DNA of 64,000 nt from Flavobacteriaceae bacterium PS02336 (GTDB lineage: Bacteria; Bacteroidota; Bacteroidia; Flavobacteriales; Flavobacteriaceae), in the NCBI GenBank assembly GCA_029960065.1, contig JASCOF010000004.1, positions 186,001 through 250,000 of the forward strand. The letters run 5' to 3'. Shown one piece after another: positions 5,570 to 28,410 of this stretch. The translations under genes were made by a program, and so were the position numbers. The stretch's first letter is position 1, and every line of letters starts with the position of its first letter. Below the pieces are notes generated by a model, which saw only the letters and a list, made by a program, of their open reading frames with translations, had not been told where the DNA came from and did no database searches.

Positions 5570-5671
5570 TTGTCATTCCGAGGATCGAGGAATCACACTA
5601 GTAACTCCGCAAAGATTGATAAAATTCTGTGCAGAATTAATAGTATGATCCTTCCTTCATCAGGATGACAA
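5570..5671. repeat. TGTCA-ended imperfect inverted repeat
   Basis: The left arm (5570-5598) begins TTGTCATTCCGAGG and the right arm (5643-5671) ends CAGGATGACAA; reverse-complemented, the arms agree over most of about 29 bases. The pattern TGTCA..C.GAG followed by TCGA matches the units around the GIY-YIG gene at 26987-27720, so the two are probably branches of one repeat superfamily. Confidence 0.7.
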
Positions 5672-26986: not shown

Positions 26987-27054
26987 TGTCAGGCTGAGCG
27001 AAGTCGAAGCCCACGTTCCAATAGGATCGCCCTTCGACTTCGCTCAGGGTGACA
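26987..27054. repeat. TGTCAGGCTGAGCG inverted-repeat unit 1
   Basis: Arms of 23 bases (26987-27009 and 27032-27054) match as an inverted repeat except at two adjacent positions. The spacer contains ACGTTCCAATAGGA, also found in unit 3. Confidence 0.9.
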
Positions 27055-27073
27055 GCAAGTGGACAAGCTTTTT

Positions 27074-27139
27074 TGTCAGGCTGAGCGAAGCCGAAGCCCA
27101 TTTGTAACAGGTCGCTCTTCGACTTCGCTCAGCCTGACA
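27074..27139. repeat. TGTCAGGCTGAGCG inverted-repeat unit 2
   Basis: Arms 27074-27096 and 27117-27139 are complementary with one mismatch; the spacer differs from units 1 and 3. It lies 90 bases ahead of the GIY-YIG gene. Confidence 0.9.
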
Positions 27140-27229
27140 GTTTAGGCTTTAGAATTTTTTAAGGTTAAAAAAAGAAATATTTTTCTTACTTTTAATTTGA
27201 AAAACAATTCATAATTAAGATTTGAAATA

Positions 27230-27553
27230 ATGAAGCGATACTATGTTTACATACTAAAATGCTCAGATAATAGTTATTACACAGGATTTACCAATAATAT
27301 TGATAGAAGGTTTAATGAGTATAATTACGGTTTAAATAAAGAATGTTATACTTATGATAAAAGACCAGTTCAATTGGTTTTTTGCACAGATTTTAATGAT
27401 GTGAATCAGGCTATTGCTTTTGAGAAACAAGTAAAAGGATGGAGTAGGAAAAAGAAAGAAGCAATAATAAATGACAAGTGGGAAGATTTAAAAAAGTTGG
27501 CTGAATGTTTAAACGAATCCAGTCATAAAAATTTTCATAAAAAGAACGTTTAA
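27230..27553 (+). CDS. GIY-YIG nuclease domain protein
   Basis: A 107-residue single-domain GIY-YIG endonuclease-like protein of the UPF0213/YhbQ size class. The family motifs are seen as YYVYILKCSDNSYYTGFTNN (GIY and YIG equivalents, residues 4-23), the catalytic arginine in NIDRRFNEYN, and the glutamate in AIAFEKQVKGWSRKKKEAI, followed by NDKWEDLKKL. It has no DNA-binding extension. It is bracketed by inverted-repeat units of one family (two upstream, one and a half downstream) between fabH and cutC, suggesting that the gene travels with these repeats. Expression signals are weak. Confidence 0.92.
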   Translation: MKRYYVYILKCSDNSYYTGFTNNIDRRFNEYNYGLNKECYTYDKRPVQLVFCTDFNDVNQAIAFEKQVKGWSRKKKEAIINDKWEDLKKLAECLNESSHKNFHKKNV

Positions 27554-27602
27554 TAGTAAATTAGCCGTCGCTCTCTATACCATTAAGAAAAATTAATAAT
27601 TT

Positions 27603-27670
27603 TGTCAGGCTTAGCGAAGCAGAAGCACGCGTTCCAATAGGAGTACCCTTCGACTTCGCTCAGGGAGACA
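27603..27670. repeat. TGTCAGGCTGAGCG inverted-repeat unit 3
   Basis: Arms 27603-27625 and 27648-27670 form a slightly decayed version of units 1 and 2; the spacer shares CGTTCCAATAGGA with unit 1. Confidence 0.88.
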
Positions 27671-27692
27671 GAGATTGAACATCATTTTTTAG

Positions 27693-27720
27693 CTTGACAG
27701 GTTGACCGAAGTTGGAGCCC
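27693..27720. repeat. Decayed half unit of the same repeat
   Basis: TTGACAGGTTGACCGAAG followed by TTGGAGCCC resembles only the left arm of the unit; no partner arm follows before cutC. Confidence 0.6.
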
Positions 27721-27738: not shown

Positions 27739-28410
27739 ATGAAAAAAAATCAACTAGAAATAGCTTGTTTTAATTACGAATCTGCAATAATTGCTCAGGA
27801 AAGCGGGGCGGACAGAATAGAGCTTTGCGAAAACATGAAACTTGGCGGCACAACACCAAATTCTATTTTAGTGGTAAAAGTCCGCGAAAATCTGGAGATC
27901 AAAATGCATGTAATTATTAGACCTCGAGGCGGCGATTTTGTGTATTCTGATGAAGAACTTACCGAAATGAAACAAGATATTAAACAGTTTAAAAAGTTGG
28001 GAGTCGATGGTTTCGTTTTCGGAATTTTGAAGGATAACGGAAAAATAAATAAAAAACAGAATAAAGAATTGGTGCATCTGGCGCATCCGCTTTCTTGTAC
28101 TTTTCATCGTGCTTTTGATGTCGTTAAAAATGTCGAAAAAGCATTGGAGGATGTCATTGAATGCGGTTTCAAAACAATTCTAACTTCTGGTCAGGGAATA
28201 AATGTAGCAGAAGGAATTCTGGCTTTGGAGAGAATTCAGGAATTGGCTGGAGACAGAATTGAGATTATGCCGGGCGGCGGATTGAGATCTTCCAATATAA
28301 AATTACTGCAGGAAAGATTAGATTTAACTTTCTATCATTCATCGGCAATTACAGATGATACAGAAATTGCAAATCCTGAAGAAGTAAAAGAGCTTAAAAA
28401 CTTTCTTTAG
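27739..28410 (+). CDS. cutC: Copper homeostasis protein CutC
   Basis: TIM-barrel protein of 223 residues. Family motifs: LEIACFNYESAIIAQESGADRIELCENM at the N-terminus (in parts), IRPRGGDFVYSDEE near residue 60, CTFHRAFDVV near residue 120, TSGQG and the EIMPGGGLRSSNI block. CutC has been linked to copper tolerance, though its biochemical role remains unsettled. Cytoplasmic. It directly follows the repeat cluster and ends at a good terminator, so it is monocistronic. Confidence 0.92.
   Translation: MKKNQLEIACFNYESAIIAQESGADRIELCENMKLGGTTPNSILVVKVRENLEIKMHVIIRPRGGDFVYSDEELTEMKQDIKQFKKLGVDGFVFGILKDNGKINKKQNKELVHLAHPLSCTFHRAFDVVKNVEKALEDVIECGFKTILTSGQGINVAEGILALERIQELAGDRIEIMPGGGLRSSNIKLLQERLDLTFYHSSAITDDTEIANPEEVKELKNFL

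Follow-up and report, generated by a model that had tools for sequence, protein, structure and literature searches.

Palindromes of the CGTC REP type have been described as small multi-copy elements that carry a CGTC, TGTC or CCTC tag and occur mainly as head-to-head dimers; they span five phyla, Bacteroidetes and Proteobacteria among them, and include dRS3 of Neisseria and RPE-4 and RPE-6 of Rickettsia (Di Nocera et al. 2013, PMC3733652). In that paper they are given a stem of 8-9 bp that starts with complementary AT and a loop of 4-5 nt; no dedicated transposase is reported for them and their mode of spread is left open. The same source describes REPtrons, in which a RAYT gene is flanked by the GTAG REPs on which it presumably acts, copies of these REPs being dispersed elsewhere (PMC3733652). 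Among openly licensed PMC papers no report that links GIY-YIG genes with repeats of this kind was found; searches with the arm sequences described below as search words returned, in the same collection, papers on subjects unrelated by title, and the available part of PMC1564403 makes no mention of palindromes, UPF0213 or YhbQ.

The stretch analysed here, called the window, comprises 64,000 nucleotides of Flavobacteriaceae bacterium PS02336 (contig JASCOF010000004.1, positions 186,001 to 250,000). The comparisons presented below suggest that one locus of the window is a two-part REP system, made of a dedicated small GIY-YIG nuclease and of TGTC-tagged palindromes on which it would act, presumably by cutting, a reading that we consider likely.

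The locus between fabH and cutC

The features of the window that concern this report are the following.

5571..5670, no strand assigned: solo head-to-head element of another arm family, with TGTCATTCCGAGGATCGAGGAATC on the plus strand and TGTCATCCTGA... on the minus strand; resembles the arms of locus L002
25911..26918, plus strand: fabH, left neighbour of the occupied site
26987..27012, plus strand: palindrome (arm) 1, TGTC-tagged, TGTCAGGCTGAGCGAAGTCGAAGCCC; left arm of unit 1
27029..27054, minus strand: palindrome 2, TGTC-tagged, TGTCACCCTGAGCGAAGTCGAAGGGC on the minus strand; right arm of unit 1
27074..27099, plus strand: palindrome 3, TGTC-tagged, core with one change; left arm of unit 2
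27114..27139, minus strand: palindrome 4, TGTC-tagged; right arm of unit 2
27230..27553, plus strand: stand-alone GIY-YIG nuclease gene, 107 aa, PF01541 E=1.7e-17; proposed cognate enzyme
27603..27628, plus strand: palindrome 5, TGTC-tagged, decayed; left arm of unit 3
27645..27670, minus strand: palindrome 6, TGTC-tagged; right arm of unit 3
27694..27720, plus strand: palindrome 7, decayed half unit
27739..28410, plus strand: cutC, right neighbour of the occupied site

The initial annotation of this DNA had placed a GIY-YIG gene of 107 residues between fabH and cutC, bracketed by inverted-repeat units, and the coordinates and the PF01541 match confirm it. Two inverted units lie upstream of the gene (26987-27054 and 27074-27139) and one downstream (27603-27670), next to a decayed half unit (27694-27720). 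Units 1 and 3 have a 13-nt spacer in common, CGTTCCAATAGGA, so that the sharing claimed by the annotation stands with a length one nucleotide below the one it had given, and stretches of the two units match at 82% across 90 nt. When up to three mismatches are allowed, the arm core has 8 matches in the window versus 1.08 expected, 7 of them around the nuclease gene; the exact core, CTTCGACTTCGCTCA, occurs in 68 copies in the 5.82-Mb genome versus none for the reversed pattern.

The window protein matches PF01541 above the cut-off and has no NCBIfam match. The GIY-YIG motif is present, with Y7, Y17, G19, R27 and E65 invariant over 36 aligned rows, and the Y, R and E among these residues are presumably catalytic. 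An AlphaFold2 model of the protein reached a pLDDT of 81.6. By sequence and by fold the nearest solved structures are UPF0213 proteins (1zg2, 1ywl), followed by fold by Slx1, which acts on branched DNA according to the title of structure 6seh; by analogy this likeness would suit a nuclease action on hairpins, short of proving it.

Organization of the arms

The tag and the core are arranged in a fixed manner. Among 358 unique candidate arms with a GAG...TCGA core, TGTC stands at one fixed distance in 236 and elsewhere in 3. The four positions flanking the core pair at 0.97, 0.94, 0.92 and 0.82 in the 236 tagged arms, and the pairing drops to 0.22 beyond them; in 104 candidate arms without GTC the flanking positions pair at only 0.27-0.40. 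Full complementarity of the variable NN pair was seen in 182 of the 236 unique arms, with 12 different types; 1,000 shuffles averaged 32 and never exceeded 48. Since copies are related, the 236 arms do not represent independent events. Each arm is a TGTC-tagged palindrome, and the units are therefore head-to-head dimers of tagged palindromes. The window belongs to the family called A here, whose arms pair over 4 bp around a 12-nt core and have one A between the TGTC tag and the pairing part; the stem starts with complementary AT in the B, C and D families but not in most A arms.

Compared with shuffled sequences, units 1 and 2 fold strongly (z -8.0 and -7.6, respectively) and the decayed unit 3 less so (z -1.7), while the folding of a single A arm is no stronger than that of shuffles. 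In Rfam nothing reached the gathering score; five matches with E of at most 1 fell below it. A conserved 2-nt mismatch "bubble", at first read as a selected recognition mark, was rejected since it corresponds to two arms of different NN type; across solo elements the NN positions are fully mismatched in 8/12 and fully paired in 4/12 in the window's own genome, and the respective values in G079, another genome of the genus, are 4/13 and 4/13. In the own genome, composite hairpins were also seen that join a left A arm to a right arm of another family and keep the TGTCA/TGACA ends (L234, about 1850-2500).

Paralogues and solo elements in the same genome

A search with the window protein recovered six small GIY-YIG genes in its own genome. 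Three of these paralogues are accompanied by three arm families: the window gene (L001) by A arms, L002 by two inverted TTGTCATTCCGAGGAACGAGGAATC arms between which it lies, and L003 by inverted TTGTCATTTCGACG...AAATC arms on either side, with one A arm also adjoining. The L003 arm family has 17 copies genome-wide at up to two mismatches. The solo element at 5570-5671, which had been put forward as a product of the window nuclease, is real; its arms are of the TGTCATTCCGAGG...GGAATC type and not of the A family, and this type is the one found around L002 in the same genome, so that the proposed origin needs correction.

The remaining three genes (L004-L006) lie behind tRNA genes, and no such arms were seen at them. 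They form a second small GIY-YIG clade, located directly 3' of tRNA-Asp and tRNA-Met genes (L004 1360-1850, L005 1370-1810, L006 1369-1810) and followed by an apparent partial copy of the 3' part of the tRNA; another genome, G057, holds two genes of this tRNA type 364 bp apart (L036, L043). This clade looks like a separate tRNA-targeting mobile gene.

Arm families and protein clades in the genus

Loci were collected from 101 genomes of the genus. The dominant arms are of the A family in 23/29 loci with a clade-A protein, the other 6/29 having none, and of the B, C or D family in 19/31 loci with proteins of these clades, 12/31 having none; the dominant arm family thereby matches the protein clade in all loci with arms (A 23/23, B/C/D 19/19), with no crossing (p=2e-12). 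Counted within 400 bp, arms were present at 23/29 clade-A loci, at 16/29 loci found with the D-type protein and at 2/2 own B/C loci. As for the controls, the same kind of detector found such arms in 0/29 Y1-transposase loci, and they were seen in 0/9 long GIY genes and 2/15 tRNA-type GIY genes. The enrichment of the repeat near GIY-YIG genes that the initial annotation had predicted is therefore borne out, arms being strongly enriched at these genes; a Y1 transposase as the mobiliser of these arms in the genus was rejected on the 29 loci examined.

The arm patterns were learned from the same loci, in two versions that differ slightly (18 vs 19 of 31 B/C/D loci), and for this reason the independent test is a pattern-free inverted-repeat score. 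This score was passed by 22/29 A loci and 19/29 loci with the D-type protein versus 26 of 5,976 sliding windows, and by 0/9 long GIY and 5/15 tRNA-type genes; at one of the latter (L040) the repeat looks like tRNA sequence. The tRNA-type label was given by sequence likeness, L004-L006 alone being checked with ARAGORN, and loci truncated by a contig end were left out, namely L031 (A), one among L168-L197 and one Y1 locus (30 matches taken, leaving 29). One genome, G047, carries two GIY-YIG genes of equal match score, with starts 906 bp apart, in an array of arms spaced about 101 bp (L016).

Copy number and gene presence

A genome was scored as carrying the A gene at an identity of at least 76% (8 genomes); G052, whose copy has one stop, was taken among the carriers and G060, which has A-gene fragments, among the genomes without it. 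With relatedness ignored, the median number of A cores is 37.5 in the 8 genomes with the A gene versus 0 in the 93 without it (p=6e-7), and that of D cores is 16 in the nine genomes with the D gene versus 1 in the other 92 (p=4e-6). At most 13 A cores were found in 89 of the 93 genomes lacking the A gene; many occur without it in G079 (140), G077 (68), G057 (65) and G053 (47), and in G098, which lacks a D gene, 35 D cores are present. When only the 22 genomes of 4.6 Mb or more are compared, carriers and non-carriers of the gene do not differ significantly in A copies (p=0.085). Because genomes with the D gene are also richer in A cores (p=0.01), relatedness confounds these tests; genomes with the A gene are not significantly richer in D cores (p=0.22). 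The proposal that the repeat number falls where the gene is lacking is thus in line with the counts over the 101 genomes, relatedness ignored, but not as a simple rule, given the four exceptions and the lack of significance among the large genomes.

An A-gene remnant was sought in G079 at 30 loci around cores and in 6 further stretches, and none was found; the A copies read in this genome are ordinary solos. Copies of this kind may have persisted after loss of the gene or be served by another enzyme. The same genome contains a tandem array with units of about 303 bp in which A and D elements alternate (L228, 2050-3350); the inner palindrome of these units, acccgacaggttttaaaaacctgtcgggt, is found at other places too and may represent another repeat family.

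Occupancy and inheritance of the site

The gap between fabH and cutC was searched in 25 genomes, 21 of which have a cutC match, and four of the 21 gave no gap measure (G057, with the cutC start unaligned; G056 and G098, with no adjoining fabH; G066, with a broken cutC). The empty-site variants foreseen by the annotation exist: in 11 species the gap measures 87-182 bp and contains neither the gene nor A arms, and in six genomes besides the window's own, making seven filled sites, it measures 678-1174 bp and contains gene and arms. The short gaps are not all virgin, as G079 has a solo D element there and G054 an apparent remnant.

Seven of the eight A orthologues lie at the fabH-cutC site and the eighth, in G066, lies elsewhere. 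The nuclease gene is therefore mostly inherited vertically, mobility of the whole locus as its main mode is rejected, and the suggestion that gene and repeats form a mobile unit has to be revised, since this unit is not freely moving here. Pairwise dN/dS among seven A genes, from which the G052 copy with one internal stop was excluded, is 0.04-0.13 in 17/21 pairs; the other 4 have no defined value, and in many pairs dS is close to saturation or has reached it. The A-type nuclease gene is under purifying selection.

The arms themselves vary at an orthologous intergenic site (L240, 7009-7097). It holds A arms in the window's own genome (G000) and B arms around an almost identical inner core in G042; G087, G049 and G063 carry further B-type variants there, and G077 a hybrid with a left B and a right A arm; at most a remnant is left in G006, and there is no element in G057, G053 and G095. 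This variation, seen at one site only, fits either the overwriting of arms or the replacement of whole elements. At a second orthologous site, solos are present in some named species and absent in others. Neither a target-site duplication nor a target motif could be fixed, in a test that is weak as the species are too divergent for exact junctions.

Distribution beyond the genus

The comparison was extended to 80 named loci, which are the highest-ranking among 367 relatives; some lie on short contigs, and cut loci were counted as failures. Inverted repeats across the gene were detected by the pattern-free score in 48/80 of these versus 26/5,976 sliding windows, and by this strict score 32/80 lack them. 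The score was passed by 32/45 loci of Flavobacterium and a few other Flavobacteriales and by 16/35 other named loci, and the passing loci outside Flavobacterium include Chryseobacterium, Pedobacter, Mucilaginibacter, Oscillospiraceae and an Elusimicrobiales bin. Tagged palindromes were assessed as short perfect stems with CGTC or TGTC, the minimum stem being 7 bp for plasmid records, 6 bp for other loci and 5 bp for Flavobacterium. In the Flavobacterium set they were found in 21/44 loci (35/719 stems near the gene and 143/11,274 far from it; ratio 4.0, p=3e-10), and in the other named loci in 5/36 (6/129 near, 17/1,757 far; p=0.003), several being unlike REPs; the long arms of these other loci are mostly without short perfect stems.

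A further 19 regions came from plasmid records and were picked from 35 and 34 overlapping records so as to avoid near-duplicates; they are not a random sample, two of them share a single S. meliloti record, and several of the records have the size of a chromosome. Palindromes tagged CGTC or TGTC lie within 400 bp of the gene in 13/19 regions, all 13 of them proteobacterial (Rhizobium, Shinella, Sinorhizobium, Neorhizobium, Azospirillum, Novosphingobium, Sphingobium, Aeromonas, Photobacterium and Neisseria gonorrhoeae), and 37/75 stems near the gene are tagged versus 14/152 farther away (density ratio 19.8, p=4e-11). In 10 of these 13 loci the stems start with AT and measure 8-10 bp with loops of 4-5 nt, which fits the description in PMC3733652. 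The gene is enclosed by a forward palindrome (start -52 to -121) and an inverted one (+284 to +360) in 9/19 loci. The pattern-free score exceeds all own control windows in 16/19 loci, L290 and L296 by one point, and does not in L295, L300 and L307. Inspected by eye and post hoc, the six loci without a detected tag showed CCTC-tagged palindromes in L300, L302 and L303 and TGTC-tagged arms in L290 and L296, and no tagged palindrome in L307. The Azospirillum protein had no match at E 1e-5 in 50,697 phage records.

Some of these genes have particular neighbours. In Azospirillum lipoferum the GIY-YIG gene lies between sufB and sufC (L298, 3986-4279), in Sphingomonas paeninsulae a relative lies between rnc and era (L307, 4097-4366), and on a Planktothrix plasmid the gene, accompanied by TGTC-type arms, has a type IIL restriction-modification gene on one side and the DISARM gene drmA on the other (L290, 3989-4273).

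Interpretation and rival explanations

Nuclease clades pair with palindrome families, the palindromes are dispersed, the gene is under selection, unoccupied sites exist, and arms have turned over at one site. That nuclease and tagged palindromes are functional partners appears very likely to us; that the nuclease drives the spread of the repeats by cutting is a view we favour slightly. Since the palindromes near its relatives in plasmid records resemble CGTC REPs, for which PMC3733652 reports no dedicated transposase, the nuclease is probably the missing partner of CGTC-type REPs, in a REPtron-like pair without a transposase. In the mechanism envisaged, the nuclease would recognise the tagged hairpin in single-stranded or extruded DNA and nick at or near its (T/C)GTC foot, and host repair would copy the element sequence into the break; such copying could carry elements to further sites and overwrite the arms of those already in place. 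DNA hydrolysis by GIY-YIG enzymes involves no covalent intermediate, and joining would for this reason be assigned to the host, unlike in RAYT and IS transposases. It is furthermore reasonably probable that the whole (C/T)GTC REP superfamily, including the dRS3-type palindromes of Neisseria and those of alpha-proteobacteria, has its dedicated enzymes in small stand-alone GIY-YIG nucleases; this would be a second, transposase-free class of REPs, in which tagged hairpins are cut and repair copies arms, both overwriting them in place and founding new sites.

Other readings account for part of these data. The gene could be a passenger that merely survives in repeat-rich gaps, the palindromes being spread otherwise, by IS or RAYT enzymes or by template switching during replication. 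The many copies in G079, G077, G057, G053 and G098 without the gene would agree with this, as would the lack of a significant copy difference in large genomes and the excess of A cores in D-gene genomes; on the other hand, the dominant arm family matches the protein clade in all 42 loci with arms, none of the 29 Y1 loci or the 9 long GIY genes has such arms, and in other groups the pairing is seen again with palindromes of a different kind, so that we hold this explanation to be unlikely, while giving it more weight than the ones that follow. The conserved tag, the family-specific pairing with one enzyme type and the arm turnover at one site speak against hairpins that act as terminators or mRNA stabilisers and nothing else, with an incidental association; the window hairpins are indeed intergenic and units 1 and 2 fold strongly, and this idea is nevertheless highly improbable.

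Strong purifying selection, a mostly fixed place and the fold similarity to Slx1 would be expected of a structure-specific host nuclease that trims or resolves hairpins, controlling rather than spreading them, with the flanking copies as regulatory sites. Such a housekeeping role is hard to reconcile with the absence of the gene from many genomes, the unoccupied site in 11 species, the separate paralogues for separate arm families and the higher copy number with the gene over all 101 genomes (relatedness ignored), and it seems to us unlikely. A little less probable again is a classical transposon, in which gene and arms would form an autonomous element with terminal inverted repeats and the solos would be MITEs cut and pasted by the GIY-YIG protein. 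L002 and L003 lie between two inverted arms, and in 9 of the 19 plasmid-record loci upstream and inverted downstream palindromes enclose the gene, as this model predicts; against it stand the single site of 7/8 A orthologues, extra units and one-sided layouts (e.g. L007 and L011) and, in a weak test, the failure to find target-site duplications. The reading as a nuclease and the tagged palindromes it acts on is accordingly preferred, and the REP/RAYT parallel with a GIY-YIG enzyme that the annotation had drawn is supported by the arm enrichment, the clade-specific families, the arm-free Y1 loci and the empty sites.

Comparison with known systems

Small tagged palindromes are common repeats across bacterial genomes, and the window elements share with the CGTC REPs the tag, the head-to-head dimer layout and the many copies (68 exact A cores), a likeness judged from the text description. 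The window A arms have a shorter stem, of 4 bp, and a larger loop, and so depart from the published stem and loop lengths; because of this the A arms are relatives by layout and unproven members. They further differ in having a GIY-YIG nuclease gene as a regular neighbour, where the CGTC REP paper found no dedicated transposase.

The UPF0213 proteins 1zg2 and 1ywl are the closest solved structures, but are titled hypothetical proteins, and the present data suggest a function for small GIY-YIG proteins that are unnamed beyond their domain in the Pfam/NCBIfam-type libraries searched. GIY-YIG homing endonucleases have the same catalytic domain, and arm overwriting resembles their cut-and-copy conversion; unoccupied sites exist here too (fabH-cutC, 11 species). 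In contrast to them, no intron or intein context was seen, and the DNA partner is a dispersed palindrome family instead of one cognate allele. If the proposed mechanism is true, a dispersed family of repeats can be maintained by a simple nuclease that has none of the chemistry of a transposase.

RAYTs are mostly inherited vertically, with separate enzymes for separate REP families, and against this general background mostly vertical inheritance and separate enzymes for separate repeat families are traits shared with the genes studied here. As in the REPtrons, the gene is flanked by its presumed substrate palindromes and copies are dispersed elsewhere; the enzyme is of the GIY-YIG type (PF01541) and not an HUH/Y1 transposase (TnpA-REP), and the tag is TGTC/CGTC and not GTAG. 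The GTAG class has a known enzyme in RAYT, and the CGTC class now gains a specific, conserved and testable enzyme candidate.
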